The position numbers and the translations under genes are program-made. A stretch of 64,000 nt of DNA from the NCBI GenBank assembly GCA_947561395.2, contig OX387194.1:13626048-13690047 (forward strand), in the 5' to 3' direction. Source of the stretch: Buxus sempervirens (taxonomy: Eukaryota > Streptophyta > Magnoliopsida > Buxales > Buxaceae). This document shows positions 9,272 through 62,446 of this stretch, one piece after another; position 1 is the stretch's first letter, and each line of letters starts with the position of its first letter. Below the pieces are notes generated by a model, which worked only from the letters and a program-made list of their open reading frames with translations, was not told the DNA's origin and made no database searches.

Positions 9272-9413
9272 GTATCCGGCAACTCAGGTCGGATACAAGC
9301 GTATTTCTTCGTATCCGATGGAAAATGCCGGATACAAGTAGCCCTTAATGTATCCGGCAACATATGCCGGATACACATAGGTGCTTGTGTATCCGACCTG
9401 ATATGTCGGATAC
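9272..9413. repeat. 39-bp-phased palindrome array in LTR A (4 units)
   Basis: GTATCCG...CGGATAC palindromes start at 9272, 9311, 9350 and 9389, exactly 39 bp apart. The unit at 9350 has perfect 10-bp arms (GTATCCGGCA/TGCCGGATAC). The array starts 102 nt from the LTR 5' end. Confidence 0.95.
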
Positions 9414-10454
9414 ATGTTTTTTGCTCAAATTTAGGGTTTTCCGAGAGTTTTCACATTTTACCATCATGTCCTTCATTAAATGAGTGGAAATCTCAGAAAT
9501 AGCCTTAGGGTTAAGGTTGGTGGGCTCTAGACATTGGTGTATGTCTACCATCCCACCAACCCTAACCCTAGCCTTTGCCTATAAATAGGAGGCTCCTCCT
9601 TAAGCAAATGGCCAACAATTCTTGCCAAGAATCTTTGCCAAGAAGAGCTCCGAGTGAAGAGGGGAACCGCTGCGGAAGTGCGTCCAGAACCCAGGTAAGC
9701 CTCAAACCTCTTCTTAATTTTCTGTCTTTACATTTCTAGATCTAGATCTCTTCTTCTACCTTTCTGTAAAATAAGGCCTTGTTGTGTGTATGAAAATCCT
9801 TCCCCGGCTCAAAGTATCTCAAGACTCCCCCTAGCCGTAAAACGTGAAGGCGGGATCTAGGAGAAACGAGACTGGGGATTGACCCTAGTACTAGAACCTA
9901 TTTAGAATAAGGCCTTTTGAATCTATGTAAACCGTTCCAATTTCAAAGTACCCCAAGATTATCTTGAAGAACCGTGTTTAACGGGGAGAGTGAACTAAGG
10001 AAAACGATAATGGAACGGAACCCTAGGTTGCTTTTAGAACCCTATTTTGATGAATATGAATGCATGCTATGTTGTTATATTGATCTTGAATGATTTTCAC
10101 ACGTTCACATACATAGCACATGTTTGGTAGGATAGACTCATATTTCGGGTTTATTGCATTTATTGTGATAAATCTGGAATAAAATGGCCTCAATCAATTC
10201 TGGAATGTTTTGAAATGGTTTTTAAAAGATTTGGATTCATCTTGCACGAATTGCATACACTTTGTCACAGTTTTGAATTGTTTTTCTCCAAAAAAGGCCT
10301 AACTTGACAGCAACTGTACCCTAACTTCGGACACTCATAACTTCATCGTCCGGATGAATTTTGGAGTGATTCCAGAACCATGGGAAAGGTGAGGCTGTCT
10401 AGTTTATTTCTACCAAATTTCATTAATTTCTATCAAGAAGAGTTTTGACACCTC

Positions 10455-10508
10455 TCTGTCGAAGTTGAGTGGACAGTTCAGGTTTAAATACCGAACTTGT
10501 CACTTCGA
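10455..10508 (+). other. Imperfect hairpin in LTR A
   Basis: The arms run CTGTCGAAGT...CAGTTCAGGT and ACCGAACTTGTC...ACTTCGACGG around an AT-rich loop. The partial LTR (about 6222-6280) has the equivalent stem with TCAAAGT/GCTTTGA in place of TCGAAGT/ACTTCGA, so pairing is kept while sequence changes. Confidence 0.6.
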
Positions 10509-11514
10509 CGGAGCGCCATGTGTTCGTTTTAAATCCGATTCGAGTGATTTTTGTTTCTGGGCACTCCTTTATGAGTCTATTTTCAAATCCAATTGGTTTC
10601 ATAATTTTTTTGACTCCATTTGTATTATTAGTAACAGATTTACTCAGAACTGCTCATCAGTACTTTTCTGGGTAAATCTGTGATCTTCGGCGCCTGTTCG
10701 GGAGACCACCCAAGGCACATCCGAATGAATTTTTGTATGAGGCTAGTTTTGTTTGAAATATGGCCATACAGACTTCAATCACACCAAATTTCATGGATTT
10801 TTATGTAGTGGTATTTCTAGGTGATTTTCCAAACTTGCCTACTTGCCACTTTTGATTTTCTCCAGCAGCAACTCTAAAAGAGGCATAACTCTTAGAATTT
10901 CAACCGGATTTAATTGAAATTTTGCATGAGACTATTATTTACCATAATCTTTCAAATGGATTTGGTTTGGTTCAATTTAAAATTGGATTTGAATGATTTC
11001 AAGACAAATGGCATTACTTTTCACCGAATTTTCCGGATTTGATTCAACTTGGCTTTGTGCAATCTTTTGCTTTGATTTCCATCCTTTTGTGATATTCCAG
11101 AAATGATATTGACATAAGAGAGGATCTAGAATCCATTTGGATCTTCATGTGGAAAGATCATACATTTGTTCAAATCCTTTTTCAAGTTTTTTTCAATGAT
11201 TTTTAGCAAGCTTTCTCTTTCTTTTGCATGAACAAACACTTGGAAACCACCTTGTGTGGGTGAATGGGGGTGCCTAACACCTTCCCCCGTTCATAATCTA
11301 ATTCCCTTACCTATCTCTGGATTTGATTTTCAAGTAGGGTTATTTTTACTCTAGAATTTGTCTTTTAGCTATTTTTGCTTATCTTTGAATCTTTTGGTGT
11401 CCATTCACACCCGAAATTTGAATGGTGGCGACTCTCCCACTTTTTTACTTTGAGCCCCGTGTGTTGACGGAGGGATGATCATTCCGGTGATTTTTTCCCG
11501 TGTCTCACAGTCCC

Positions 11515-11868
11515 TGGAAGAACTGATTGTGAATATCAGGATAGAGGAGCAAGCTCAGATCAGGGAGAAGGCCCAAAAGCTCAATTCCTTAGTTCCAGTC
11601 AGCAAAGCCAACATGATTGAGGATGGTTCTAGGAAAAAGCAAAGGTGGGATTCTCAGAAATCTTGAAAACCGGAGTTTAAGAGAGACTCAAGGAAAAAAG
11701 GGAATTGCTTTGTCCGTAGCAAGCTAGGCCACCATGTTGCTCAATGTAGACACAAGAAATGCAAAGACAAACCTCAAGTTAATCTTATTAAGCCTGACAT
11801 TATTGTGGCTGTGATTTCAAAGGTTAATCTGATCAGTAACCCTAAGGAGTTGGTGGTGGACACTGTGA
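11515..11868 (+). pseudogene. Copia Gag continuation with damaged zinc knuckle
   Basis: Continues the Gag frame directly after the second GTCCC, with 'LEELIVNIRIEEQAQIREKA' and then a lysine-rich linker. A CCHC knuckle follows at about 11707-11750, read as CFVRSKLGHHVAQC, in which the second cysteine is replaced by arginine. An in-frame stop follows 'QRWDSQKS' (about 11664). The frame then runs into 'LVVD' at the protease start, where solo LTR B is inserted. This is a non-functional remnant. Confidence 0.88.
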
Positions 11869-12829
11869 GACATGGGAAATCAAATCAATGACTTCCTATC
11901 ATTACACGAGATTCAAAAGGAGTCGCCATCATTCTGTTTAGGTGTGAATGGACACCAAAAATATCAAATAAAACAAAACAAAACAAAACTAGAGTAAAAA
12001 TAACTCTGCTTCAAAATAAACAAAACAAACCAGAGATGGGTAAGGGGATAAGGTTATGAATAAGGGAAGGTGTTAGGCACTCCTATGCATCCACACAAGG
12101 TGGTTGCCAGGTATTGTTCATGTTTGAAAAAGGCTTGCTACTGAACTTAATACAAAAGAACATGAAAAGAATAGAAAGTATATGGTTTTATCATACAAAT
12201 AGCCCGATTAATTCAGAACCTTACCTTCAATATGATCACACCATTCCTAGGGTTTCATGATTGAAATAAAATTGAGATAAAAAATCAAAGGAAACCAACC
12301 TAAAGTAAAACCTAGAAAATTAGCTTTAGGCTAAATCATTAAAATGTTGAAAAATCAAGTTGAAATTTTTTGATTAAAACATTGAGGAATAAAGTTTTAG
12401 GGTACAAATCTGATCCAGATCTTTCATTAGTTGAGAAATAGAACTCAAATCAACCCATGTTGATGAAAAAAACATCAAAAGGAAGAGTTTAGACCATAGG
12501 ATCCTCTCTTCAAGATTAAAACAACTTCAAAATCACCTCACAAAACCCTAGAGGTTACTTTAAAGCTTCTGATTTCAGATCTATCATATAGATCATGATA
12601 GATTCAGAATCCTAGCCAAATATAACTGAAATCAAGAAAACAATGATATAGGTGCAATGGTGTGCAAAAAACCAAAACTGTAGGAGGAAAGGGGGATCTT
12701 ATGCTATAAACAGCATGGATTCGTAGGATTCCTCCAGATTCAGAATAAAACATTTAAAACATGAACAGGGTAATAAAAGAAACCACATATTACAGATTAC
12801 AGCACATAGGGGTCTATCCTATGGATCCA

Positions 12830-13070
12830 TCTGTTCTCTTTTCCCCTAGCTCTCTCTTTACGTTTTACGGCTAGAGACGAGTCTTGAGGTACTTAGAGAT
12901 AGGTTTGGGAATACAAACACAATCAAATGGCCTTATTCTACTAAAAAGAGAAAAACATATTATAGGTTCTATTCTAAGGATCCATCTATTTTCTTTTCCC
13001 TTAGCTCTCTCTTCACGTTTTACGGCTAGAGAGGAGTCTTAAGGTACTTGGAGATAGGTTTGGGGATACA
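12830..13070. repeat. Tandem duplication inside LTR B
   Basis: Two copies of a roughly 150-bp unit containing 'ctctctcttcacgttttacggctagaga'-type sequence. The same duplication occurs in LTR C (about 61590-61840), so it predates their separation. Confidence 0.8.
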
Positions 13071-13466
13071 GACATAAACTAGGCCTTATTAGACAAAAAT
13101 GGAGAAGATCAGACTATCTTTAGAATTAAAAATAGAAAATAAAAGAGAAAAGGGACTTACCTGGATTGAGAAAGTAGAGAGGCAGGGGTTCCCTTCTTCA
13201 CTTGGAGCTCTTCAAGCTTCAGATTCTCAGCCATTTGCTTGAGGAGAGGCCCTCTATTTATAGGCAAACCCAGGGGCATGGTTGGTCCCAAGGGTATGCC
13301 AAAATAAGGTTTCATAATGTTCCAATTAAGTTTCAAAGCATGAGTTGAGGTAAATCAGTCAAACAACAGAGGGTGAAAAAGGGGATTCGGATCTCCCAGA
13401 GAGAGGTTTGAATATAAATAAGGCTCAGAAATAAAAAAAATGACGAATTTGCACAAAAAAGCCTGC

Positions 13467-13571
13467 GACTGCATACATAATGCGGTTGTGCCTTAACCGC
13501 ATTAATAATGCAGTCACGGCATGACTGCATATAAAATGCGGTCACCACCAGACCGCATTACTAATGCGGTC
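13467..13571. repeat. 28-bp-phased palindrome array in LTR B (4 units)
   Basis: Units start at 13467, 13495, 13523 and 13551, exactly 28 bp apart. The last has perfect 10-bp arms (GACCGCATTA/TAATGCGGTC). In element orientation the array starts 103 nt from the LTR 5' end. Confidence 0.95.
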
Positions 13572-13674
13572 AAAACAGGTTTGATCAATTTTTACACTTT
13601 TTGACCTGTTTCAAATCTCAATTAAATATTTTTCCTTATTTTCTCATCTTGTAGTGTAATTTGGGGCGTTTATA

Positions 13675-13908
13675 GACACAGGTGCCACCAAGCATATCTG
13701 TAGAGAATGTACTATGCTCATGTACTACCAGCCCGTGGGAGAGGGTGAGTAGGTGTACTTGGCTGATTCTCGCACTTCTCCAGTTGCTGGAAAGGGAAAT
13801 GTGAAAATCAAGCTCACTTCTGGGAAGCAGTTGGCTTTGAATGATGTGTTGCATGTACCAGGCATCTAAAGGAATCTAGTGTCAAGGTACTTGTTGAACA
13901 AGGTTGGG
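13675..13908 (+). pseudogene. Copia protease fragment
   Basis: The frame resumes after LTR B. With the residues before the insertion it encodes the aspartic protease active-site region (VVDTGATKHI). 'VYLADSRTSPVAGKGNVKIK' and 'LNDVLHVPG' follow, the usual copia protease order. In-frame stops occur after 'GEGE' and 'VPGI'. The homology ends at about 13908, where unrelated dispersed repeat begins, so integrase and reverse transcriptase are absent. Confidence 0.9.
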
Positions 13909-14344
13909 ATTAGAAAACAACAAACCTTATAAATGTATTACTTTTATTAGCAAATACGAATAATTGTTTTATTTATATGTTTTTGTGACATTTTAATGGC
14001 TAGGATTACGAAAGGAGATTTTCTTTAATTTATATCTTTGAAGTTAATGTCTCTAGAATTAATGTTCTTCTATTTCATTCATGAAAAAATTAACGATTTT
14101 TTTTTTTAAAGTATAGAAAAATGTATCCAAGTATTTTCTTTTTCTAGTTAACACCGTTAGAGATGACAACGGGTCGGGCTGGTTTATGGTGGGTTTTGGT
14201 GAACCCAAACCTGCCCCCTAGAAGTTTAGCCAATACCAAACCCTAACATGCCCCTATTAAAATAATAATTTAATATATGATACATACTAAAATAATATTT
14301 TAAACATATAAAAAATAATAATTTAATGTACTAAGGTAGGGTTA
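13909..14344. repeat. Dispersed AT-rich repeat and hAT-like end
   Basis: Related to 17625-18120 (same orientation) and, in part, to 44755-44840 (inverted). It includes 'gatgacaacgggtcggg...gaacccaaacctgccccctagaagtttagccaata', typical of terminal sequence of small plant hAT-like elements. No coding capacity. Confidence 0.6.
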
Positions 14345-16640
14345 GGGGCGGCACAATACCAAACCATAATCATTAGGGGTGGGTGGGGCGCCCCATGCAT
14401 TGATAAGTTAGGGGGGGGGGGGGAGATGCTAGATATATAACAGGGAAGGGATGAGATATATTATCTGCACTTTTTTCTTGCATTTAAGGGAGATACTGCT
14501 TGATTTTTTTCAAAAAGAAAAAGCTTAAATGCATTCTAGCGACTTGCTATTAGTAATGGCTCATGTAGTTGAGCTCAATGGGTCCAAATTAAAGTTTGGA
14601 TACACATCTGCATATCCAAAGAAGAGCAATATAGAGGCATTGAAGGAGATATTTGTAGTTGCATCTGGAAGATTGAGATTGAAGGCAACCAAACTTTCGA
14701 CGATAATCAATACCATCGTACTTTGCATTAGATAGAAGCTGATCCCACGGTGGGGAGATGATACTTTTAACACTCAGCCAAAAGGAGTTCATCAACTTTT
14801 CACAAGTTCAGAGTTTTATTTGGCTCGATGCAATTGTCTGTGAATAGGGGTGGCAATCAGTCGAATACGGATAAGATATATGTATATTCATATTTGAATC
14901 CGAATTTTATCGGATCTTAGATTTCGGATCCGTATTCGAACCACGGATCTAAATCCTATATTTGAATTTGCCAATTTCGGTTTCGGATCGGATTCGGATC
15001 GAATTCGGATATATATCCCAATCATTGCTAGCCCTACTCAGAGAGGGATTTAAATGAGAAATGGGTTTGAACTTCAAATTTGAAGCACCACGCAACAGTG
15101 GATATTGAGCGACTGACAAAAAAAATCGTACCCCAGAACTTAGAACAACCGGCCTATTTTGGACAATGGAATTTCAGAGCAAAAAAGGTTTCAAAATAGG
15201 GTGTTTTGGAATTGGTTCTTTAAGTGGGTTTGCAGGTACCAGTCGCTAGAGGGTGACAGCGACAAAGAGGATAGAAAGTTTAGATTTAGGGCAAATCGTT
15301 CTCTAAAAGGTTTTTGGTTTTAGTTATGATGGTTCAACCGTAGTTTATAAATGGTCTACATTCTAACCAATGTCTACTCTGGGTTTATGTAAAAGATATA
15401 TATGATTTCGGTCGGATCTTATTCGGATCAGATATATGTATATTCGTATTTGAATCCGAATTTTTTCGGATCTTAGATTTCATATCTGTATTCGAACTAC
15501 GGATCTTAGATTTCGGATCAGATTCGCCAATTTCGGATCGGATTCGGATCGAATTCGGATATATATCCGACCCATTGCTAGCCCTATCTGTGAATCCATA
15601 GCGGCGCCCATGAAGGTATTATGATCATTAATTACCTTCAATCTCAGTCTTTCGGATGCAACTACAAAATATCTCCTTCAATACCTCCATATCGCTCTTC
15701 CTTGGACATGCAGATTTGTATGCAGCAGAAGCAATGGAAATGTTTCCAAACTTTAATTTGGACCCATTGAGTTCAACTCCATGAGCCGTACATTAGAGGG
15801 ATCAGACTCCTGTAAGTCGCGACAGTTCGGGGCATTTGGCAAATACAGAATTTGAGTCAGTGGGTTCTTAAGTCTTTGGTTTGGTTTTTTGGTTTTAAAA
15901 ATGTAGAACTAAATTAAAGGCCTCGGTAAACCGAACCGAACTGAAAATCGAACAAAATATCCTAAACTTAAAACTGAACCGAACCGAACCGAAATATATA
16001 ATATTATATATAAAATATATAATAGATATAATTTATATAATAATATTCAACTTATTAAATGACATTAACTCATAAGTCTTTACTTTTTAGGTTTACTCTT
16101 CTAAGTCTTTTAATGGTTTCAAAGTTCCAACAATAAATGTTTTATCATGTTTTACTATGTGAATATCAAGTTTTTATATTTAAAATACTTTATTTGAATA
16201 AATTACGGGTTTTACCATGTGATCGGTTTGGTTTTCCATATATGATCTGTTCAGTTACGGGTTTTTCATATATGATCGGTTTGGTTTAGATACTCTGGTT
16301 CCACGGTCGGTTCGGTTTGGTTTTAGGTCTACCATCAATAACCTCCATTTGGTCTTGGGCTAAGACTAACCCGCACCAAACTGCACCGAATTGCAGCCCT
16401 ACCCTCTACTGGTATAAGCAAAGCATGGTTGATTGATTGAGAAATTAGGAAGTCCCCGGAACATGTTATTAGTTCTCTAATGGCCAAATCAAAAATTCCC
16501 AACTATAAAAGCCTGCCGCTAACACCCATTTTGAAAACTCTTAGCGCTCGGCTCTAAGAAATCAAGAAGCTTTGTAGACCCAATTTGTTCTCTCTTTCCA
16601 GATATCCAAGGAAACCTCAGCACTTTGAGTCTGGTAACCC
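14345..16640 (+). repeat. Dispersed segment D1 with internal inverted repeat
   Basis: Inverted relative of D2 (about 43100-44520), with which it shares nearly every block in reverse order. It contains an inverted repeat of about 150-190 bp (14550-14735 against 15640-15790). Its spacer is interrupted by the hAT-like element 14845-15586. The right part (15880-16400) is rich in 'accgaaccgaac', and 16470-16630 has a TATA-like and splice-donor-like stretch repeated at about 52880-53320. Short open frames in the arms resemble no family I recognise. Confidence 0.75.
14845..15586. mobile_element. Non-autonomous hAT-like element (742 bp)
   Basis: The ends are TAGGGGTGGCAA (14845) and TTGCTAGCCCTA (15586), imperfect inverted repeats. 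The 8-bp target duplication TCTGTGAA is intact at 14837-14844 and 15587-15594. D2 keeps the unoccupied site with a single copy (44051-44058, inverted). Inside, an approximately 190-bp module rich in 'ggatc/ggattcgga' occurs twice (14850-15033 and 15405-15586). No transposase is encoded. Confidence 0.9.
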
Positions 16641-17196
16641 CTCTCTCTCTATCTCTAACTCCATGTTTGGACTTTCAAGTATCCTATGAGTTCTAATTTC
16701 TATTTCTTCACTGATTCAATGTGATATAGTTGAAGATTTCTTTGTAATTTCGTTGAATTCTTGTTATTGATTTCCTTATTAGCGCTGTCTCTTCAATGAA
16801 ATCTCAAAAAATATTGGTTTCCTTTCGGGTTTTATTGTGAGTTCTTTATGCTGTTTTGCTTTCTGGAAATGTTTTTTGCAAAATTCTCACAAATTTTCTT
16901 CTAATCTTTGTTTTAGAAAAAAAAAAAAGGAAAAAGGTTTATGTGAGTACAGCATATTTATATCTATAATTTTATACTTTTTTCCATCGAATTCTGGTTG
17001 GTTTTTGCCATCTGGATTTCTTTCTTCGACTTCCACAAGTGTTAATATAATACGGAAGAATCCATATTTATATTCGAATTTAACCAGATCTGAAAATTGG
17101 AATCCATATTTAGTTCGTCAGTTAAGACTCGGATTTCATATTCGAAAATTCAGATCGGAATACAGATCTAAAATCTAATCCATTGATATCGTTGAA

Positions 17197-17253
<57 letters not shown>

Positions 17254-18355: not shown

Positions 18356-18363
18356 CTACACAG

Positions 18364-21300
18364 TAGGGATGGGTGGCGGGCCGGCCCGGCACGCCTGAGG
18401 CGTGCTCGGGCGGGCTGAGGGACTGACGTGCCGCGGGCCTGGCGGGCCACGGCATGCCAGGCTCGTTTGCCCATTACACCAGCCCGGCGGGCCGGCGGGC
18501 CAATTAATTTAAATTTTTTAAAAAAACTTTAAAAAATCCCAAAAAATTTCTGTAATATACTTTTATTGTTCACAAAATTGTCTTACACATATTGAGATAA
18601 ATTTTGCTCAAAAAAATATAAATTCATTAATTATCACAAGTACACTTACAACTTTGCAAAAATTACATAATTACTTGAACAAATAATACTGCATCACTAT
18701 AGTATAAGCACATCCCAATTAGGTTGGCACCCACTCATCTATCTATCATTTGCAGTTTAAAAGAAACAAAAAAAAAAAAAGAGAAAGTACAATTCCTATA
18801 CTTTGATTACAAAAATTATATCAAAACTTATACTACTCTGGTTGACTAAAATCAATATTCAAATCATCAAAGTCTCCAGCAAGTTGATCATCTTCATATT
18901 CCTGTTCTCTCAGTTCTGCCCTTAACCAATCTGTAAGACTGACACATGCTTGCACCATCTCCGGCGTTAATCTGCTCCTGTAATCATCCACGATTCGTCC
19001 ACCTGCGCTAAAAGCTGATTCCGATGCAACTGTGGACACCGGAACCGTTAGTAGATCACGTGCCATGGCGGAAAGTACAGGATAATTAACCTGATTTTGC
19101 TTCCACCATGTCAAAATGTTAAAAGCATTATGCTCTTCTATGGTATTGAAACTCATTGGGGGGCTTTCTAAGAAAATCATTAATTCAGATGATCCCCCAC
19201 TACTAGATGCTGGTTGTTTTCTCTTTCTTCTCCCACTTAAAAAATTCCAAGGGGAATTATCTGATAGTGTTTGTTGGGTTCGCGTATGACCTTGTATACT
19301 ACTACTAGTATCGTATTCACAAAAAAGTCTTTCTAATAGATTTCTTATTTTACTTATATCTATTTGAAAAGTAGAATTCATATTCTTATTTATTCCATCT
19401 ATCAAGTCTTCAACTCCTAATTTAACCCTAGGGTCTATTGTAGTAGTTAAACAATATAAATTAGGCATCTCTTGCCAATATTTTAAAATTTTAGTTTCCA
19501 TTGCAGGGATAATTTCCTTAGCAATTGGTACATTTCTATATTGTTTAAAACAAATACTTATTTGATATAAACAAGTTATAATACTTGAGGATGTTGGGTA
19601 ATAAACTACTGATAAATACCTTGTTGCATCATAAAAAACTTTTAAAAAATCTCTAAAAATTTCGGCTATTTGCCAATCAAGATCCTCTAAGTCACTTTCA
19701 GGCATTTTACTTTTATAAAATATTGTAATTTCTTGTTTTAATCCTAGTGCAGCTTCTAGCATTAAATATGTTGAGTTCCACCTATGTTCAACATCTAGGG
19801 TAATTTTTTAATATTGCTTTCCTAAAGTTTCACAATAATATTTAAATTCTCTAGCGGGTGTGCTAGATTGTTTTATAAATCTTATTGCATCTCTAATATT
19901 TATTAAATGATATTGAACAATTTTTAATCCATCTTGCACAACTAAATTAAGAATATGACAAGCACACCTAACATGAAATAAACTTCCATCTATATTTAAG
20001 TTTAATTGTTGTCTTAATATTCCTACTGCAACATTATTAGCACTTGCATTATCAAGTGCTAGAGCCATTATTTTATTGTGTATTTTATAATTTCTTAGAT
20101 TTCTACTTATAGCATTTGATATATTTATTCCAGTATGGCTAGCATCTAATGGTTCAAAAGTTATTATTCTTTTTTCCATATTCCAATTTTCATCAATATA
20201 ATGTGCAGTTATAGCTAAATAACTTATTTGTTGTCTACTTGTCCAAATATCTGAGGTTAAAGCTATCTTACAAGTACTGTTTGACAAAGTTTCTATTAAT
20301 GCAGTTTTCATTTTTCCATATAATTTTATAGCATCCTTTCTTAAAGTGTGGCGTGAAAAAGGTTTAAATTGTGTTGCTAAATATTTAGTTATTAAACGGT
20401 GAAATCTTTTAGAATCTATTAATCTAAAGGGTAATTCTTCTTGAATTACCCACTTTACCATTTCAAGCCTAGTTCCTTCTTGATTAAAAATAAAATTACT
20501 CATAGCAACACTACTAGTAGAAATTTGGGTTTGCCTAGGGTCAATTTGGCCATGTTTTGGAAAGCATTTCTGCAAATGCCGGTTCAAGTGGCCTGTAAAC
20601 ACCTTTGCCTTTACAACTAAAATGTTTTTTGCAATGGTTACACACTGCCTTCTCTTCAGTCCCTACACTTTCAATTGTAAAATTAAGCCAAACACCGGAG
20701 GTTCTACTCCTCTTGGTGCTCCTAGGTGGTAGAGAAGACGATCCCATATCTTGTGAAGGTAATTCTGTTTCAAGATCTTGGATGGGAGGATCATTATATT
20801 GGGGTTGGGTTATATCATCAGAAAATACTGGGTCAGAAAGGGGTCTAAGATATTCCCTTTCTTCAGTGTCAAAAAACATAGGATACCTAGGGTCCATTAA
20901 CAAATTTTTGGAAAAAAAAATTCTTAATAAATAATATTATAATAAATATTTGGTGATACTAATTTATAAGAAAAGTAGAAGGAGAGACTTACTTATAATA
21001 ATAATATTTATACTAATTTTAAAATCGGAAAATTAAATAGAAGAATACCTCTTTAGAATGAATCTTGAACTTTGCAATTGAAGCTTTCAACCTCCAAAGT
21101 CCAATTTCCCACTTTTAATGCTTGAACAATTAGAAGAGATCGAATATCACCAATTTCCAATTACAACAATTAGAGCAAAGAAACTATTTGATAATCAATT
21201 AGAAGAGAGTAGGAGATTGTAGAAGTGGTGTGGTTTGGAGTGGGAAAGGGAGTGGCTATTTATAGAAAATTAAAAGTGGCATTTTACCACCTCTACCCTT

Positions 21301-27440: not shown

Positions 27441-27665
27441 GGCTGGGCCCTCAAGTTGTTTAAAATGCATATCTGTCTCAGTTCAAAGCAAAAATTTCTA
27501 CAATGCATATCTGTCTTGGGCCCTCAAGTTGTTTCAAATGCATATCTGTCTCAATTGGAAGAAAAATTTCTACAATGTATATCTGTCTTGGGCCCTCAAG
27601 TTGTTTAAAATGCATATCTGTCTTAGTTCGAAGCAAAAATTTCTACAATGCATATCTGTCTCACT
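27441..27665. repeat. Minisatellite, 3 x about 73 bp
   Basis: GGGCCCTCAAGTTGTTT recurs at 27445, 27518 and 27590 (periods 73 and 72). A sub-repeat 'atgcatatctgtct' occurs twice per unit. Confidence 0.95.
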
Positions 27666-34739: not shown

Positions 34740-35895
34740 TTATATATACATGCCAATAGTACTTGGCAGATATGGCTTGAGAGACACTAATGTTTCTACA
34801 TAACTATCCAAATAGCTCCAATTTCCAATAGTACTTGGCAGATATTCAACACTTTCTGTTTCTGTGTTATAGGAAATCAGTCCTATATCCAACAACACTG
34901 CCAGTTTATTTTTTTGAAAATTCACTGGTTGTATCCAAGGAGATTCAAAAATTTGGTTAGTCATATTTGACCTTTTAATAGAGAATTGCTTGGACCAGGA
35001 GTCCTCTACTCTATACCTTCTCATAATCCATACATCTATCTGTTCTTGAGAAATATTTTTCCAAACCACAGACACGCACAGGCATTCTTGCAACACCCCC
35101 ATGAAAACAGAAGAATCAGTTTTCTCGGCCTCATTTTTGTATTCAGGCAGATGTATCTCTTTAAACTCTTCCTTCCCCATATCATACGAAAGAATCATGT
35201 CACAGAAACTGTACGAATTGAATTTCCTCACCAACCAATGTAGACATCCTTTGAAAAACTTTGACCGACGTGTTTTAAAATAGAAGTTGGTAAAGGAGGA
35301 TTGACTGAGCTCTCTCCATGAATTGGTTCTTAAACTGTACACAACGAGGGAGGATTGACTGAGCTCTCTCCATGAATTGTTTCTTAAAGCTTGCGCAAAC
35401 GAGTTTAGGATCTTCTGTTTTCCAGCAAATTTGTTTTCCAAGAACCTTGTAATCATCTTTCATGGCATCCCAACCGAACCCCATGACCCAAAAGGGGGAC
35501 TTCAAATTCACTGCTGTGGGGTTGGCGAGAGGAGGTGACGACAACTTGTATTCTCTTGTGATGGGATTCCTTAACTTTATAGATCTCCCCTGAGATGTGC
35601 ATATCAACCCGTTGCAGCTACTAATAAAATTAAAGTAAGGCAAGTTTTCCAGCAGTTTTAATGGCTCGCCCCATGTTGCAGGATCAACACAGTAGCAGCT
35701 GGTCTCGTCAGTGTGGCTGTAGAGGATGGAAAGAGCAGGGTTGCTATGATTTGCTCGAAGAAGATGCAACTTGATGAATCTAGGTTCGTCAAGCAACGCA
35801 TACCAAGATCTGCATACACATCTAAAACTTAAAAGAGATCTGGTTGGTACCCATGAAAGGATTTCAGTTACCATATCAAACGGGATATTCACCAT
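34740..35895 (-). pseudogene. F-box protein with F-box-associated domain, frameshifted
   Basis: Start ATG at 35895. Residues 1-45 form an F-box ('MVTEILSWVPTRSLLSFRCV', then 'CRSWYALLDEPRF'), the Skp1-binding part of an SCF ubiquitin ligase. An F-box-associated domain follows ('SCNGLICTS', 'LRNPITREYKLSSPP', 'GFGWDAMKDDYKV'). The frame shifts after 'DDYKV' near 35445, and the rest continues in another frame (35456-34740): 'VVYSLRTNSWREL', 'GCLHWLVRKFNSYSFCDMIL' and 'SYDMGKEEFKEI', ending near the usual family C-terminus. A 54-bp in-frame duplication (35295 and 35349) repeats 'NSWRELSQSS'. One shift plus the duplication makes a functional product doubtful unless splicing removes it. Confidence 0.85.
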
Positions 35896-36360
35896 GTTGC
35901 TTTCTTTCTCTTGAACTTCTTTTCTCTCTCTTAATTCAAAATTTTGCAGTCAACAATGGTTGTTCTTACCTGAAGTAATCAAATATATAAATAAGCCAAT
36001 AAATTTTTTTTTTTGTGAATTCAATTTTAAAATAATAACCCGAATCCCTCTTATGAATCAAAAACATTAGAGCAGAGCAAAACTAAAAGAGATAAGAGAG
36101 TTTGGGAAATAAAAGATTACCTCTACTCCTCCCTCCAAACCTTAGCTTCCTTCAGGATTTCACTTCTTTCCCTCTTCAAATCTTCCTTTCTTTCGTTTTT
36201 TTTCCTTCTTAAGAAAAGCCACTCAGTATGACCGTGAGTCTCTCTTTATAGAGGGCGACTCCAGTATCACAAATCACAAGGAGGTCTCCTACTCTAACTA
36301 GTAAACCACAACTCTTACGGTATTGATTTATACTATTTTATTTTTATTATTACTGGTCTA
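35896..36360 (-). other. Upstream region of the F-box gene
   Basis: 5' flank of the F-box gene on the minus strand, including a CT-rich tract at 36120-36215 that could be leader sequence. No TATA box was firmly assigned. Confidence 0.4.
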
Positions 36361-48384: not shown

Positions 48385-48715
48385 CCTGTGGCATTCGAAC
48401 ACAAGTCCAACGATTTTGAACGCTATTCTCAAGTTTCTTTGCACCTGATATTAACAATTAACGTTTGAACTACACCTCTAACGGTCACAAACGCTACTCT
48501 CGGGTCAAGTTTCTCTGCACCTGATATTGACAATTAACGTTCGAACAACACCTCTAATGGTCTCAAACGCTACTCTTGGGTTTCCTATAAATCAGAACTA
48601 CACTTGTGGCATTTGAACGACACATCTAACGTTCTTTAACGGTACTCTCAGCTTTCTCTGCAACTGGAATTAACATTGAACGTTCGAATGGTGCCTCCAA
48701 CGCTTTCAAACGACA
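48385..48715. repeat. Degenerate tandem repeat, about 4-5 units
   Basis: Units of about 75-80 bp contain 'ctgatatt(a/g)acaattaacgtt(c/t)gaac', 'cacctctaacggtc' and 'aacgctactctcggg'. Confidence 0.85.
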
Positions 48716-51680: not shown

Positions 51681-51689
51681 TTATACCGT

Positions 51690-53067: not shown

Positions 53068-53106
<39 letters not shown>

Positions 53107-53320: not shown

Positions 53321-54340
53321 TCAACCATGCTTAAATACTGGAGCTGTAAGTTTGGCCCGGACCGCCCAACCCAGCCCGAATAACAGCCCGATTTAAGAAA
53401 TAAGTTTGGGTTTGGGTTTGGGCTGGGCTCAATCTTGAGCTCGAAGTTGAGTTCGGGCTAGGCTCGGACTCACAAGGTACAGCTCGAAAAAACCCGAATA
53501 ACCCGAAATATATATACCACTAAAACCCCTTCCTGCAAACCTCCATGCAATTGTCTCCTACAAACCTAAAAGTTTCTTGTCCTCTCCCATATCTCTACCA
53601 CAGAAGTTGGAATTGCTCGCCCCTCTCACTGACTCACTGTCCCTCTCTTCTATTATCAATACCTCATATCTCAAAGACAACCTAGCTAGAGAAACCCCCA
53701 ACAAAGGAGCTCAATCGGCAGGAGCTAGCAATACAGTTGCCGTCGGTGTCGCCGTCAATACGGTGGGATACAGTTCCGATAGCAAGGGATTTGCGATTGC
53801 TCACAAGGGATTTGCGATACAATTCCATCGCTCACAAGTCACAAGGGATTTGCGATTGCTATTTTTGTCAAATCAGGCATCTCTCTTTAAATCGTGCATC
53901 TCATCTTTCCCCATTTGTTCACTGCTTTCAGGTACTATTTAATTCCTCTCTTTTCTAGTACTCGATCTGGATGAGATCCATTAATGTGTGCTTGGGAGGG
54001 TTTGTTTCTCTTCCTCGGCTATGCACCATATAATCTAAAACTATATACCTACCTTTGACTACAAAGTTAGTTTAGATATTTCAATCCCCAGTATTTTACT
54101 GCTGGATGCAAAATTTCATTAAAATTTGATTTCCGATAAGGTAGCAAAACAGAAAATCTTATTACTTTAGTAGTATTTTATTTATGTTATTTTTAACATC
54201 AATATATATCCCCTAAAATCTTGATTTATTGTTCTTGTTTGGTCATATGCAAATGAGTTATGTGTTTCTTACATAATTTCGTGGTTCTAATATTTGAAAC
54301 GTAGATTCTAACTCAGCAAAAAAAAAAAAAAAATGTAGAT

Positions 54341-57300
54341 TGTAAAAGCCCTAATTTTTATGAAAATAAAAAAATTATAGGTTTAGTGATTAAAATAAAG
54401 TTAATTGGTAAATTTTGCAGGAAAGAAGATCATATGGGACTAAATTAAGATCCGAGTGAATCAGATCAGAAAAGAATTCATTTGTGTAGGCCAGGTAAAA
54501 TTTTATTTAATTTTTATTTGGGAATTAAGTTGGATGGTGATGTGGCAATTTAGGGTTTAATTAATCAAACAAGGTTGCTGGTGTAGGGAGTTTTGTAGTG
54601 TGGCATAACAGGGGAGTGTGATTTAAGTGGTTTGAGCGGCAACTATAAATACAAGGAAGAGATCTCGTTGGTTTTGTTTGAGGAATTGAACGACTAAAGA
54701 GGAGATCTCGAGAAGGAGAAGAAGTTGAGCTAGGGTTTCTAGTTCCGATTTGGAAGAATTGCTGGAGATCAAGGGTTGCTGTTGTGGACGTTGAGTTACT
54801 GTTAGACGAGAATTGTAGATCAAGTTGCGGCAATTTCCAATTGAGAGTGAGAGTTGGAAATGGAGCTGTGGTGATTCGAATCCAGGTAAGTCTAGTAAAA
54901 TAGCTGCTAATTAGTTGTGTCAATCAAGAAGAGGGCAGACCTGATGAGATCTGACTTGGAATTGGAATGTTTCAGAGATCTGTCCATTCGTCCAATTCTA
55001 GAAGCAGTAGATCAAAATTGTTTGAGGATTTGAAGAGGTTTCCAATCGCAGCCTTGCTTCTATCAAGTAAGTAGCACAATCAAATTTCGGTTTAGCTGTT
55101 TTAATCGAGAAATTGATTTAGTCTTAAAACCTAAGAACAACTGAATTCTATGTATACTAATTTGGGCGTTTTAGATCTGTTTAGTAGTTAGTTTTTTATT
55201 ACATTCAAGTCTACAGCATGATGGTCGGTTGGTTAGATGATTTCTGAACTGCTGGAGGTGCTAAGATGAATAAAATATGGTTAGATTACATATATAAGGG
55301 TGTCTACGAATGTTTCTGGAGAAATTGCATTTTAGTTTATGCATGGACGGCTAATGTATGATAAAATGTTTTTGTAATTCAAGTAAATTCAAATTCGTGT
55401 CTAATTGAAACCTATTGTTATTCATATGTGAGTGACTAATTGCATTTTTCTGGTTGAATGTTTAAATATGGATCCAAACATGTCTAAATGTGATAGTTGA
55501 GGGTTAAACTCAGATCGATGGCATTGGGAATGTACTGAGTTTGGTAATCTAGCGCCTACCTCTGTAGAGGTCAGTGACAGCTCCTCTTTTCAAACCAAAT
55601 ATATGCTATGATTGTTGGCATATATGTATATATATTGTATATGTTAAAACTTATGATAGTAGTTGTATTATCTAATCAGATACTTGTGATACAGTTAAGG
55701 GATTGTTAGTATAGCTGCTGGTTAGTAGAGTCATGGGCATTTGCTGCTAGTGCCTACCTCTTTAGAGGTCAGCAGCAACTCAATCATTAATATTGGTATT
55801 GGTTATTAAATTCAGTTAGGGGTTGTTCTCATAAGACTCAACTAGAAGTTGTATTAAGGTAGGTATGAGCGAATGTGCTAAATTTGACAGCATAGTTGAA
55901 GTCATAAGTTCTAAAATCTGAACCTGTGTGTGGATACCAAGTGCTGTTGGGGTTGGTAACAGCACTTGTTCAATACTTTATTAACTGTTTTAACTTCTAA
56001 TTGTGGGAAAATAATTAGGGAATTAATCAGTGGTATTAAGGAACTATTGGGAAGCAGCAGAGGCTGAATTTGGGAAAAACATTTCAGGTATTATGATGTG
56101 AAAAACCAGCAAACTGTTTAATGGAGGTTTTGAGTGACTTTTAGGTGCTGAATACTTCTCCAGTACGTGCACCTCTTGCATGGTTCACTAAATTGGAGAG
56201 AGTGAGTAAAGAACTAGTTAGAGATAAATAAATGAGTTTTGAATGAACTTTAGGAGGCTGAAGTAAGTATTTAAACAAGGAAGTAAACATAAATGGAAGG
56301 GTTAAAGATAGGCATTGAGAACTGGAGTAAAGAAAGTTGGTTGGATTATAAAACAAAAGTAGGAGCTGCTGTTTTGGGCATGAATCATATAGTATCATGA
56401 TTTAATTCAAAATGGAGTTAATGTTCAGTTTCTAATTTAGAATTGCTGGTTTAACCGAGATTTGTCGGTTTTGCAAACTTTTGACTAAAAAGGTACTTTA
56501 TGTAGTATTTTGGAAAAATGACTTTAAAACAAATTGCTTTGGGAATAAATCGGTTAATGGTTCTCCATATATTTGAAGGATAGTTTTATCGTTTCTAATG
56601 CGAAGATGTTATTTTACTTCCGTGTATCTCGGAATGAATTTGGAACCTCTCCATGTACCTTGGAAAGTAGATTTGTTTGCTCGATGTATCTTGGAGGGTG
56701 ATGATTATTGATTGGCACTATTAAATTTGTTTGGTTATTTTGATTGTTGGTTTTTTAGTCTAGATGGCATAGCTCGGTGTGGATCCACATTTGTCAAGTT
56801 AAGAGCTAGATAGTGGAATAGATTGATCTTTGCTAGTTGTAATACCTTGTTCGTGCACGTGTTTCCATCGTGTAGCTCGATGATGCCTTCTTTGTATCTG
56901 GTTGGCTGCGGCTATGTTAGGATGGTACATGCCAACCCATTACTGTATTTGGATGGGTTCTCCCGTAATAAGTCGATGACCGTGTAGCTCGGCTTCACAC
57001 ATAAGCCGGGAGGTGGCATAGTGAGCTTGGTTTTACACTAGTTAAAGGCGGTTTATTTCATGAGTCCACCATGAACTTTCTTCTAATTATTGCACGTTAT
57101 GGATTTCTGTTATACAGGGATTGTAATCTTTTTCTTTTATAAGTATATATGTTGGTTTCGGATTATTCAGTTTACTCAGTAAGATGAGTTATCGTTATTA
57201 ATGCATGTTTATTTCGGAAGCATGTTTTAGAACTATTAATAAATGTTTTATGCATGCATATGCTACTTGCTGGGATATTCGTATCTCATTAAGTTTTGTT

Positions 57301-57640
57301 TTGTTTTGCTTTCAGATCCTAGTGAGGACGATATCCGTGGGGTTGTGCCAGTCGCGGATTACCTCGAGTATAGGGGAGAGGATAATTTTGTTGAGTGACA
57401 TTTGAGAGATATCTTTAGTTGTTGATTACATTTGATATGTGAGTAAACTTTGAATTGTAATTCTTTCTTTAATTGTGGATTGGTGATTTGGTATTAGTAG
57501 CAAACTCTGATATTGATGTTGATATACATAAAATGCTTTTCATGTTGTCTTATACTTTGATATAGATCCTGCGGTTTAAATATCTAACCCTTGGTTACGA
57601 GTTACGTTTCCACTACGTAACCCGGATTTGGGGCGTTACA
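54341..57640 (+). mobile_element. Solo LTR of a Ty3/gypsy element (3,300 bp, TAGAT duplication)
   Basis: Runs from TGTAAAAGCCCTAA (54341) to GATTTGGGGCGTTACA (57640), with the 5-mer TAGAT at 54336-54340 and 57641-57645. The end matches the 'GGGGCGTGACA' type of plant Tekay/del LTRs. A TATA box (CTATAAATA, about 54646) on the plus strand lies 305 nt from the start and supports plus orientation. Internal repeats include 'gcctacctct-tagaggtcag' (55555, 55758) and 'tgtagctcg' words (56600-57000). No primer site follows, so it is a solo LTR. Confidence 0.88.
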
Positions 57641-57645
57641 TAGAT

Positions 57646-58300
57646 TCTAAAGTAATTGGAAGAGATAGGAAACATGAATATAAAGTCTATTTAAAATTAA
57701 TAAAGTTGATTGATTTTGTAAAAGGTATTATTTTTAGATTAAGGTTTGAATACTTAAACAATGTGAAAATGCAATGAAACTAATTCTGGAATTTCAAAGG
57801 TATTCTTTTAGAATTGTGAAACTTCACTGTAGCCATGCTCTTTGCAGTTACAAAGACTTAACTATAGCCATGCTGTTTGATACTGAAGATCTTTGTTCAT
57901 TAGAGGATGCTGTAATTGTAAGGCTTTGCTTTCAAATGCATTGGTTTGGGCTTGTAACCAGGTATGTAATATATTTAAATTTTGCCTGCTTAATACCAAG
58001 AAATGAACTTTAAGTTTGAGTTGAATTACCTTGCTTTAATATGTTCTAAAATTTCTGTTTGTTTGAAAGTAGTTCTTATGTCTAAATATCCTTGCTTTAT
58101 TGTGCTACTTAGTTTCATAAGTTAGTTTACTTGATACCATAGGTCCACAACAAACTCAAAAGTTTGGTGGACTTATAGAGATCATTTTTTAACCTAATAC
58201 ACAAACAAATCAATGTATGCCAATAAACTTTATTATATATATCGAAATATTGTAGTCTTATATATGTGAATGTATCATTGTATCAAGTAGAAAAAAAAGT
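57646..58300. other. Interior of the hAT-like element, right part
   Basis: AT-rich with no transposase motif. A short open frame at 57774-58013 has no family signature. Confidence 0.5.
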
Positions 58301-58477
58301 TTGGGCTAGCCCAAACCCAACCCGAACTCAAGAAATAATTTTAGGGTTGGGTTTGGGCTCAAAGAGTTTGGTTTAGGGCGGGCCGAGGAGAGTTTGGGTT
58401 CATCAAATTTAGTGGGGTTGAGCCTGAACTCATTGAAACCCAGCCCGACCCGCCCTACTTACAGCTCTATTAGATAC

Positions 58478-58681
58478 TAGTAGAGGGATCAGACTCTTGT
58501 AAGTCATTAGAGCTCGTGGCAAATGGCAATTGGCAAATACAGACCGTGGTCCACTAAGCCTTATGGACCCTTGAGATGGGACTTGTATGTTATATATTGT
58601 CAATTTCTCCTTTTTTTTTTCTTTAATGTTTTTTTTAATGTTTACTGTCTATTATTATTATTTTTAAAAAATATCTACAAT

Positions 58682-58743
<62 letters not shown>

Positions 58744-58775
58744 GCAATTTTGAATGTGCGTTTGTATGTTGAACT
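58478..58775 (+). repeat. D-family fragment
   Basis: Matches D2 at about 43690-43840 ('gtttactgtctatta', then CT repeats and 'attagcaattttgaa.atgcg'). Together with 53165-53338 it forms the copy into which the hAT-like element was inserted. Confidence 0.7.
58686..58739. repeat. (CT)n microsatellite
   Basis: An uninterrupted CT run of about 54 bp, longer than the CT run at the equivalent place in D2 (43775-43795). Confidence 0.95.
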
Positions 58776-59358
58776 CTAGTAGTCTCCCCCAACGGTATGT
58801 GCACAATCATAGTAGCATCCAATGTGTCAGGTACTAATCCAATTCGACATGCACAACATGGAGTGATAAAAGAAATAGATGCTCCAGCTTCAAACAAACA
58901 AATCGCAAATTGACAGGAAATGTAAATAATACCTCCAACCAAGTGTGGGGCCTCATGCTCCTCCTCCTCCTGAGCATCAATAGCAAAAACCATAGTCTAC
59001 TATGCCGGTGGAATCGGTGCAGGCTGTCTCTGTCCAACCCTAGGTGGATCACCTCTACCTCCACCATACTGTACTCTAACCTGCTACCTCTACTCAGTAG
59101 GTGCCAGCTGTACTGTCCTCTCAGTACTCGGCCTTTGTGTTTGAAACCTATACGGAGTCTGGGCCTCCCTCTACTGTACCGGTCTAGTCTCTGTCTGTAA
59201 AAGCTAATAGGTAGTCGAGTAAGAACACTCTGCTACTCGGTCCTCTCTGGCCACACCTGAAACAAGCACCTGGTGGGGCGATGCATGGTCCAGGAACATG
59301 TGCTCTACCACAACTCTGACATCTATCTCCGATCTGTGTAACTCCATAACTCTCCATC
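58776..59358 (-). pseudogene. Ty3/gypsy Gag zinc knuckle and protease remnant
   Basis: Minus strand. A Gag C-terminus with a CCHC-like pair ('RCQSCGRAHVPGPC' and 'CFRCGQRGP') is followed by a Gln/Arg/Gly-rich linker. The retropepsin start comes next: 'LVGGIIYISCQFAICLFEAG', 'ASISFITPCCACRIGLVPDT'. The catalytic DTGAS has become EAGAS, so it is inactive. Several stops and shifts lie between the two parts. The left end joins D-family repeat and the right end is broken by LTR3 at 59359. The motif order is that of plant chromovirus-type Gag-Pol. Confidence 0.85.
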
Positions 59359-60430
59359 TGTGCGCACGAGGGGTCGCACAGCGGGGCGCACGGATTAGCG
59401 TGCGTGCCTTCGGGAGGGTAAAACGGGAAGGTTGGAGTCGCCACCACCTGATGGGGTGCAGGTGGACACCTGGGTGCCTGAGTTTGTCTATCAGGCTGGT
59501 CTGCGGCTTGAGATTCTAGGTAAGGTCTCGATTACTGTCCGGGAAAGTCCGTAGACACCCCAGTCCACCCCGTCGGTTGACGAGTCCCATAGGTTTCTCC
59601 TGGTTTGAGTCAACTCACTGTTTTCTCACCCGATTCCTAATCCAGCATGCAACTTGTTTAAGGCTGGTGGGATCACCTAAGTGGTGTGGGTCCCTTTAAT
59701 TAATTTTATCTTGTTCAATTAGTGTGAACTGGGTCAGATTGGGTGGGCCCCGTTGGAAGGCCCACGGTGTCCTTGGTGGGCTTGGTTAAGCCCACATGCC
59801 CTTGGTGGGCCTCAGTCTAACCTGAGAGGCCCTTTGGGCTTTGGTGAGTTTGATTGATTTTACTTATGGTTTAGTTTGGAGGTTTAAGTGATTTTTCATG
59901 CAAAGTGGGCCGGGATTGCTATGTGAGCCCATTGGGCAAGCCCACAGAGGTAGCCAAGTGATTTATTTGAATTTATCTTCTTTTAAGTTCCCAAAGTGGG
60001 CTAGACATTGGGCTTTGGGGCCCATTAGTCTAGCCTTGGACCAGATGGTCCATGGTTCAAAAGGGGTTAGGGTGTTGGACCCTACCCAGTTAGGTTAACA
60101 GGCTTAGTGGGCCCAACAGGCCCGCACCCTCGGTCGCGGCCAAACCATGCTTACACTAGCCATCATGCTTCATTTTTGGGCTTTGGTGGGCCACATAGGG
60201 TTCAGCCCACTTAGCTATCTAATTATCTTGTTTTATTTTCAAAAGGTGATCTTAGGCTGGGGTGGTCCCCGTTGGAAGGCCCACCAAAGGATCCAATTGG
60301 GCTTGGAAGCCCACGTACCATTTTGGGTTTCCGGTTGACCCAGAAACCCGGTTGGTTCAACCGGTTCGGCTTAAACAACATGGCAAACCAACCAACACGC
60401 ACAATCAGGTTTTTATTGCATTTTTAAAGT

Positions 60431-60570
60431 AACTGAAATGGAATTTCGGTCAAGCATGAAACACAGTATAACCAAAAACACATTTCGGTTATACTGTGTT
60501 TCTAGCTTAACCGAAATTTAATTTTGGTTAAGCCAGAAAACACACATAACTGATCTATGTTTTCGGGCAA
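60431..60570. repeat. 39-bp-phased palindrome array in LTR3 (4 units)
   Basis: AACCGAAA/AACTGAAA...TTTCGGTT-type palindromes start at 60431, 60470, 60509 and 60548, exactly 39 bp apart. The unit at 60470 has extended arms (ACAGTATAACC/GGTTATACTGT). Confidence 0.9.
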
Positions 60571-60638
60571 CCTGCAGAAACTCATTTTTTGCATTTTTTC
60601 GATAGAGAAGCAATTCCTGAGGTTTGTGGACATGTATA

Positions 60639-62446
60639 TGTGACACATAGGAAAAAATCAAAATCCATTGACTTCTTCGATCATCACACGGGATTGAATA
60701 AAACAAAGAGTCGCCACCATTCAATTTAGGTGTGAATGGACACCAAAATATTAAATAAGCACAAAAGGCAATTTTAGGGTAAAAATAACCCTCCTAAAAA
60801 AACAACCAGAGATGGATAAGGGGATTAGGTTATGAACAGGGGAAGGTGTTAGGCACCCCTATTCATCCACACAAGGTGGTTGCCAGGTATTGTTCATGTT
60901 AAAATAAAGGAAAAAAGCTTGCTATAAAAATCAGGAAAAATCATAAAAAAGACAAAATTGTATGGGTTTTTCATATGAATAGTCTGATTGATCCAGAACT
61001 TTCAAATATGATCATACCATTCCTAGGGTTTCATGATCAAAATAAAATCAAGATAAAATCAAATAAAATCAATTTAAAGTGAAAAATAGAAAAATCTGGC
61101 TTCAAGTCAAATTCTAGAAATCTAGAAAAATATGATTTTTATAAAATATTTCAAAATTGAACTTGAATAGTCCAGTACATGGATAAAGCCCAAATTTCAC
61201 ATTAAATCTGAAAATACAAACCAAAAAATACCCACGTTGAGGAAGAACATCAAAAGGGGAGAACTTAGACCGTAGGGTCTTCTCTCAATAATGAAAAACA
61301 ACTCAAAAACCATATCATGAAACCCTAGAATTTGCTTTCAGGCTTCTGGATCCAGATCTACCATATTGATCATGATAAATCCAGGATCCTAGCCTAAAAT
61401 CACAAAAATCACGAAAACAGTGCTGTAGGTGCAAATATGTGAAAAATCCAAATTTTATAAAAAAGCGGGGATCTCATGCTATAAACACCATAGATTCATG
61501 TTATTCATTCAGATTCATCATAAAAACAATTAAAACATGATCAGGATATTCAAAGCAGCCACATCTCACAGATTATAGCACATGGGGGTCTACCCTACGG
61601 ATCCACCTGTTCTCTTTTCCCTTAGCTCTCTCTTCACGTTTTACGGCTAGAGAGGATTCTTGAGGTACTTGGAGATAGGTTTGGTTACACAAACACAATC
61701 AAAGGCTTTATTCTAGAAAAAGGAAAAAACAGATATGGGGTTCTATTATAGGGATCCACCTATTCTCTTTTCCCCTAGCTCTCTCTTCACGTTTTACGGC
61801 TAGAGAGACTCTTGAGGTACTTAGAGGCAAGTTTAGGAATACTAGATACAAAAGATGGCCTTATTCTACAGCAATAGAGATGATCCTATTACATCTAGAA
61901 TTGAAGACAGAAAATAAAAGGGAAAAGGGACTTACCTGGATTGAGCAAGCAAAGTAGCAGGGGTTCCTCTTCTTCTCTTGGAGCTCCTTGGACTTCAAAA
62001 TTTCGTGGCCTTTTGCTTGAGGAAAGGCCCTCTATTTATAGGCAAATACAGGGGTAAGGTTGGTCCAAGGTTTGGCAAGATAGAGTTTCAGTTTGAGTTA
62101 AACACAAGATCATGTCCATCCTTTATCCACAAAGATATTTCACACGAATAAAATATATAATTCGCTAATTTAAAGGGATATTGGACTAAAGATAAGGCTC
62201 AGAAATCGAGAGAAGAATAAAACTCGCATGAGTCTAGAATGCCCATAAATGATTTACGGTCCCACGATGTCCGTATATGTATTACGGGCGCTGCGTGCCC
62301 GTATTCAAAATTCGGGCGCACTTAGCCCGTAGATACAATACGGTCCAGGCTCAAATTATCCATTTTCATACATTTTTGGCCTGTTTTAAATCCCAATTAA
62401 TGTTTTCATTATTTTCTCATTTTTAGTGTAATTTGGGGTGTCTACA
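60639..62446 (-). mobile_element. Solo LTR C (1,808 bp, target duplication GTATA)
   Basis: The plus strand starts TGTGACACA (60639) and ends GGTGTCTACA (62446). GTATA flanks it at 60634-60638 and 62447-62451. It is a close relative of LTR B: 4x28-bp palindrome array (62241-62345), TATA box (62032-62040, about 410 nt from the 5' end), splice-donor-like CCAG/GTAAG (about 61930-61938, minus), a roughly 150-bp tandem duplication (61590-61840) and a GAGTCGCCA core (60708-60716). Confidence 0.95.
62241..62345. repeat. 28-bp-phased palindrome array in LTR C (4 units)
   Basis: GCCCGTA/GTCCGTA...TACGGGC/TACGGTC palindromes start at 62241, 62269, 62297 and 62325, exactly 28 bp apart. The array starts 101 nt from the LTR 5' end. 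Confidence 0.95.

Follow-up and report, generated by a model that had tools for sequence, protein, structure and literature searches.

Why do six long terminal repeats (LTRs) within one stretch of the Buxus sempervirens genome carry rows of palindromes whose spacing is kept while their letters differ? The stretch, referred to below as the window, comprises 64,000 nucleotides (assembly GCA_947561395.2, contig OX387194.1, positions 13,626,048 to 13,690,047, forward strand). The original prediction, made from the letters alone, had placed imperfect palindromes on a strict period of 28 or 39 bp in these LTRs, with different sequence in each, and had proposed that they serve a dimeric DNA-binding protein or a folded RNA. 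Here we argue that the arrays are probably operator sites read as double-stranded DNA, and that the protein reading them may be a plant mobile domain (PMD/DUF7745) protein encoded on the antisense strand of the same retrotransposons.

The palindromes were sought under a strict rule, in which a unit is CCG-N11-CGG with at most one mismatch in the six triplet bases and at least five of seven symmetric positions per arm, and a cluster is at least three units no more than 60 bp apart. Six clusters and no others were returned from the window, all at the six predicted places (first to last triplet starts 1465-1521, 4690-4746, 9276-9393, 13469-13553, 60433-60511 and 62243-62327), and reading the units one by one likewise showed imperfect palindromes there, repeated every 28 or 39 bp. 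Two of the listed units, at 4660 (first of its array) and at 60548 (last of its array), are too degenerate to be caught by this rule. The same scan gave zero clusters in four of four reverse-transcriptase loci (about 3.75 kb each) and zero in 1,500 mononucleotide shuffles of 2-kb sequences. Looser cut-offs add arrays beyond those originally listed; six is the number of element insertions bearing the listed arrays, and those around 4660 and, probably, 60431 carry further ones. The arrays, the LTRs and the accompanying motifs are as follows, in window coordinates, with elements designated E1 to E7.

626-643, minus strand: motif resembling a primer binding site (PBS), TGGCGACTCTGCTGGGGA, after the E5 LTR (motif search)
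647-3764, minus strand: E5 LTR, about 3.1 kb, start approximate (two genome copies align down to 647; start read from the sequence)
1463-1539, minus strand: E5 palindrome array, three units, period 28, half-site AACCGCA/GACCGCA (unit reading, scans)
3913-6201, minus strand: E6 LTR, about 2.3 kb, starting TGTAGACACC, with a PBS-like motif at 3909-3892; ends approximate (alignments, sequence reading)
4660-4764, minus strand: E6 palindrome array, four units, the first degenerate, period 28, half-site AACCGCA/GACCGCA (unit reading, scans)
5444-5620, minus strand: further E6 array units, half-site GACCGCA, absent from the original list (looser cut-off)
9170-11509, plus strand: E3 solo LTR with the 5-bp target-site duplication GTCCC on both sides (sequence reading)
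9272-9413, plus strand: E3 palindrome array, four units, period 39, half-site GTATCCG (unit reading, scan)
9577-9590, plus strand: TATA-box-like GCCTATAAATAGGA, about 165 bp downstream of the E3 array (sequence reading)
11864-13674, minus strand: E1 solo LTR with the target-site duplication GTGTC (LTR strand) on both sides (40 scored genome copies)
13252-13265, minus strand: TATA-box-like GCCTATAAATAGAG, about 200 bp downstream of the E1 array (sequence reading)
13467-13571, minus strand: E1 palindrome array, four units, period 28, half-site GACCGCA (unit reading, scan)
60431-60568, minus strand: E7 palindrome array, four units, the last degenerate, period 39, half-site AACCGAA (unit reading, scan)
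60639-62446, minus strand: E2 solo LTR with the target-site duplication TATAC (LTR strand) on both sides, adjoining the E7 array (sequence reading)
62030-62043, minus strand: TATA-box-like GCCTATAAATAGAG, about 200 bp downstream of the E2 array (sequence reading)
62241-62345, minus strand: E2 palindrome array, four units, period 28, half-site GCCCGTA (unit reading, scans)
63682-63881, minus strand: further AACCGAA palindromes, pairs 38 bp apart, probably of the same E7 element (looser cut-off)

When the units are written out, CCG-N11-CGG is common to all six arrays, with scattered mismatches. This rules out a complete replacement of sequence: spacing and dyad symmetry do persist while the bases around the triplets change with the family, but the CCG/CGG core and its N11 spacing stay the same. 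Period 28 is CCG-N11-CGG-N11, with the triplets alternating every 14 bp, and period 39 is CCG-N11-CGG-N22; the 11-bp difference between the two, one helical turn, had been noted and lies entirely in the gap between units (CGG-N11-CCG versus CGG-N22-CCG). Among spacings of 5 to 25 in the window, 11 stands out with 31 triplet pairs having symmetric flanks, the others having 1 to 9 each. In 124 pooled sequences, exact CCG-Nk-CGG occurs 335 times at k = 11 and 5-43 times at every other k from 0 to 40 except 39 and 37, the 153 occurrences at k = 39 being the next-unit harmonic of period 28. A secondary peak (77) stands at k = 37, for which neither the period-28 nor the period-39 pattern accounts. 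The strict period holds in the six listed arrays, but in related arrays elsewhere in the genome N11 is kept and the period not always, with steps of 27, 38, 40 and 41. Rfam returned zero matches in the window at gathering scores.

Around the fixed core, the half-sites of the window arrays are family-specific: GACCGCA, GCCCGTA, AACCGCA, GTATCCG and AACCGAA. Searches of the genome by DNA similarity scored 40 of 1,566-4,286 candidates per query, and the counts below describe those copies, not a genome-wide frequency. Arrays of at least three units were found in 50 of 60 E1- and E5-family loci (81 arrays, 289 units). E3 copies read GTATCCG in most arms (20 of 20 loci), E7 copies read AACCGAA, and other LTRs read GCCCGTA, ATCCGCA and more. 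In the E1- and E5-family units, arm positions 1-7 are symmetric at 0.74-0.92, symmetry at the triplet positions being partly built in by the search, and the centre (positions 8-10) at 0.38-0.42; a second pooled analysis gave 0.28-0.42 at +5 to +7. Left and right arms agree across the units of one array at 0.67-0.70 (positions -2, -1, +3 and +4), and between arrays of different groups at 0.26-0.42, the groups being rough labels of which some mix half-site types. In E3 (20 of 20 loci), identity between units is 0.98 in the arms and 0.29 in the linkers; in E7 the corresponding values are 0.85 and 0.31, from the 15 of 20 loci that had enough units under the rule, five being dropped. Arms that are alike across units where linkers are not, and far above the level seen between groups, fit a shared half-site read from DNA. 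Judged by these sequence patterns, the arrays are very probably sites for a dimeric DNA-binding protein.

Where do such sites lie? The E1, E2 and E3 arrays are found about 100 bp into the LTR, with a TATA-like box 160-200 bp downstream of them, which places the arrays in the U3 promoter region; in the AACCGC LTR treated below (L136) the array likewise precedes a TATA-like box. The 5-bp target-site duplications at E1, E2 and E3 are those of LTR retrotransposons, and same-strand LTR pairs occur 19.3 and 22.0 kb apart elsewhere in the genome. The same E1 LTR ends recur in many genome copies, and among the 40 copies scored with the first 501 bases of the E3 LTR the next best is 95% identical. An LTR start was looked for in E7 and not found. 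On either side of the array the LTRs of E1 and E2 can be aligned, at 77% and 83% identity, and the alignment breaks at the array itself; thus the array stretch changes faster than its flanks. Both LTRs also hold a duplication of about 150 bp downstream of the TATA-like box (window 12810-13117 and 61582-61869), with an extra copy seemingly present in some E1 genome copies.

The array-bearing LTRs fit Ogre/Tat-like elements of the Ty3/gypsy group, as had been guessed, in domain order, PBS-like motif, LTR size and PMD gene. Ogre/Tat elements have an additional RNase H between the RH and integrase domains (PMC6317226) and a PBS complementary to tRNA-Arg (PMC9289625), and 57% of Ogre elements carry an extra open reading frame with PMD (PMC6317226). 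An E3-type element (L105), whose two LTRs are 22.0 kb apart and of which the 9 kb ahead of the 3' LTR were read, shows the order RVT_1, RT_RNaseH, RVT_3, Integrase_H2C2 and rve, where RVT_3 would be the additional RNase H. A motif resembling a PBS stands behind two window LTRs, E5 and E6. The extra PMD frame is present as well, as described next; none was found beside E1 or E7, where frames were listed only. Many of the best reverse-transcriptase matches fall in one short zone per contig, as those of centromere-homing elements would (C1 30.2-30.8 Mb, C10 3.8-4.4 Mb, C14 30.4-31.0 Mb and others).

Downstream of its integrase, the same E3-type element has antisense frames that are broken; one of them matches DUF7745 above and PMD below the Pfam cut-off, and a second period-39 array of GTATCCG lies about 400 bp upstream of this antisense DUF7745 match. 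A genome search with DUF7745 scored 118 of 5,750 first-look candidates, from which 15 PMD loci were picked for varied open-frame length and profile coverage, before any look for arrays, and the 2 kb upstream were read. An array is present upstream in 10 of the 15 (three with AACCGC, seven with GCCCGTA), always about 290-425 bp before the first matched domain base; in the reverse-transcriptase loci, which serve as the comparison set, the figure is 0 of 4. At one locus (L124), about 25 bp separate the end of the array from a TATA-like box and about 120 bp separate it from the first ATG. In two of the five array-less loci, the encoded protein has 35-42% identity to that of the array-bearing type. 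Frames of about 498 amino acids, many of them uninterrupted, mark a second and distant PMD type, with no CCG-N11-CGG array upstream in the two loci inspected, L128 and L129. One E5-type LTR match lies 17 kb from a PMD match of the array-less length class and was given no weight.

Do the two arrays of an element agree? In all three elements examined, the LTR and PMD-promoter arrays have the same half-site (GTATCCG, GCCCGTA and AACCGC). The GCCCGTA element repeats the identical half-site in the identical step order in a second array 4.4 kb further on, and the similarity of the two is restricted to the array itself (96 bp at 68%). On contig C8, two same-strand copies of the GCCCGTA block, 19,288 bp apart, flank an antisense PMD gene, as LTRs would, and four scored PMD genes, all antisense, lie 5.0-5.4 kb from a block of this kind. 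For the AACCGC family, the LTR was located through its similarity to E1 and E4, and the place and half-site of its array were expected from the alignment before 671 bases were read; these contain a polypurine tract, the LTR start, five AACCGC palindromes and then a TATA-like box. Across four families (E3, GCCCGTA, AACCGC, and E1 with its internal array) the matched pairing is the best of 24 permutations, the E1 internal arrays coming from 10 picked loci with no PMD found beside them. LTR starts near the PMD genes of two other loci (L109, L111) were judged to be nested insertions, having no polypurine tract ahead, and were left unused. The GCCCGTA family looks very young: 8 of the 40 scored copies of its LTR block, query included, are 100% identical (C22, C8, C4, C21 and C6).

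The PMD protein itself is constrained. Between first-exon pieces of array-bearing families, dN (nonsynonymous divergence) is 0.03-0.20 and its ratio to synonymous divergence (dS) is 0.06-0.12 where dS could be estimated, which it could not in a number of the 21 exon pairs, dS being poorly bounded above about 1.5; the low ratio indicates selection to preserve the protein. In the fold model, confidence is reached only within residues 434-526, in a C-terminal coiled coil, and the predicted coiled coil is compatible with a dimer.

Taken together, these features suggest a circuit in which the arrays would be operator sites. Their paired, inverted half-sites would be recognised in double-stranded DNA by a dimeric protein, for which CCG-N11-CGG is indispensable in every family and which reads, in addition, the family-specific bases around the triplets. 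Such operators would sit both in the LTR ahead of the TATA box and just upstream of the antisense PMD gene between pol and the 3' LTR, and a PMD dimer binding both would couple the main promoter of the element to the expression of PMD itself, the effect presumably being activation of the element promoter or a lifting of host silencing. Since half-sites have diverged between families, each regulator would act on its own family. The suggestion that the sequence tracks a co-evolving partner has thereby become the leading idea, with PMD as candidate partner. A self-encoded, family-specific regulator circuit of this kind, resembling that of VANC, is given a probability of roughly 55%, and that PMD is the protein binding the arrays is about an even bet.

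Several observations weigh against this circuit. The array caller is noisy, six other spacings having given 7-31 clusters versus 139 for N11. No array was found in the 2 kb upstream of 5 of the 15 PMD loci, and the ten that have one are not independent, seven belonging to one element family (79-99% alike) and three to another. Neither the E1 internal array nor the extra E7 palindromes have a long open frame beside them (the largest is 176 amino acids; frames were listed, with no profile scan); these flanks were dropped as proof of the link, and the case for PMD therefore rests on the E3, GCCCGTA and AACCGC elements. The matching concerns those three elements and one further family, and common ancestry or exchange of sequence between arrays could contribute to it. 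The AACCGC LTR array is irregular, its five CCG-N11-CGG palindromes following at steps of 38, 23, 117 and 68. The E2 LTR of the window has GCCCGTA, yet the window has no DNA similarity to the GCCCGTA PMD element (5 kb compared), so half-sites can coincide between unlike elements. Arms also agree slightly better within a unit than across units (0.73 vs 0.68, positions -2 and +3). On the side of the protein, the PMD fold model is poor outside the coiled coil (mean predicted local distance difference test score 40), with no DNA-binding surface seen, and a profile search of solved structures with PMD returned zero relatives.

Could a host protein read the sites instead? The use of host factors by plant LTRs is known in general. 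A dimeric host transcription-factor family with a CCG core could drive both the LTR and the PMD gene, different element families using different members, and the promoter-like place of the arrays ahead of TATA-like boxes in both, with their common core and fixed triplet spacing, agrees with this. However, the two arrays of any one element have half-sites that vary together, and E1 and E2, with LTR bodies so alike, read GACCGCA and GCCCGTA, respectively, which one factor of fixed specificity would not require. We regard host factors as an unlikely explanation, but as the best surviving alternative.

A purely mutational origin, in which tandem duplication and sequence exchange keep functionless units alike, could draw on the fact that tandem arrays are common in plant retroelements (PMC11963269). 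Homogenisation would, however, spread whole units, whereas the arms are kept while the linkers are not (0.98 versus 0.29 in E3), which disfavours plain tandem duplication; nor would it place arrays at similar positions ahead of two promoters or hold N11 across families. This origin is highly improbable. Least probable of all is the folded RNA of the original prediction, with 3' LTR units forming hairpins in genomic RNA for packaging, stability or 3'-end formation: every unit is indeed a short inverted repeat with the slight within-unit excess noted above, but the central bases are asymmetric and would not pair, arms match about equally across and within units, so that the paired substitutions once proposed as a check appear at the level of families and only in small excess inside single units, G-T mismatches on the sense strand (349) do not exceed A-C (368) and thus show no wobble bias, and the same arrays stand upstream of a gene read in the opposite direction.

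Parts of the proposed operator circuit have published counterparts. PMD-A clades occur in Gypsy only, with the function of the domain recorded as undetermined, and an anti-silencing role has been speculated for PMD captured by Mutator-like elements (MULEs); in Arabidopsis, two PMD proteins take part in the silencing of transposons (PMC5418596). The extra PMD frame of Ogre shares with the present case both the domain and the element group, but the portions of the papers considered (PMC6317226, PMC5418596) contain no cis-regulatory array and no matching of half-sites. The Arabidopsis PMD proteins MAIN and MAIL1 are tied to a promoter motif, DOWN, of genes whose expression is down in the mutants (PMC7156037); those are host genes. 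Antisense extra genes of unknown function have also been described (PMC7264820, PMC11963269). Among them, the TRP28 frames of Retand resemble the PMD gene in being antisense between pol and the 3' LTR and in being proposed as DNA-binding regulators (PMC11963269), but TRP28 (PF04195) is absent from the Pfam matches of the antisense proteins scanned, and the repeats of Retand, situated between pol and the LTR, are nowhere presented as operator palindromes in the portions considered. Palindromes that serve as insertion targets (PMC6911290) are short sites at insertion points and have no bearing on these arrays. No report tying LTR palindrome arrays to PMD was found in the open-licence papers searched.

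VANDALs are DNA transposons of the MULE type, unlike the Ty3/gypsy LTR retrotransposons considered here, in which PMD is the candidate protein. The anti-silencing protein VANC of VANDAL, which binds its motif and removes methylation, nevertheless offers the likeness that an element-encoded protein has sequence-specific targets in the non-coding parts of its own element, often tandem repeats that vary considerably between related elements (PMC5735166); the repeats described here, as putative targets, also vary between related elements. The likeness does not extend to the proteins, VANC carrying DUF1985 and DUF287 where the antisense proteins here match DUF7745 and PMD, or to the motif, YAGTATTAC not being a CCG-N11-CGG dyad (PMC5735166).

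Other features of the window lie apart from the arrays. A remnant of a hAT-type transposase occupies 18833-19807 on the minus strand (Dimer_Tnp_hAT, RNase H-like; best relative found 43% identical), and two overlapping frames at 34740-35949, also minus, encode an F-box domain together with an F-box associated domain whose match is weak and below the cut-off. Tandem repeats of 72 and 76 bp lie at 27444-27661 and 48429-48581, respectively.

With family-specific half-site arrays in both the LTR and the PMD promoter, the PMD domain has a concrete candidate target. Tentatively, and at somewhat less than even odds, Ogre-type PMDs would be a new class of dimeric DNA-binding regulators in which the CCG core and N11 are fixed and the flank specificity changes fast, each family forming a closed circuit, with address codes that separate families and PMD-less families that may ride on a matching code. 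If the circuit is real, it would add a further private code of regulator and target beside that of VANC, this time in retrotransposons, and would provide matched pairs of protein and site from which the rules of recognition could be worked out.

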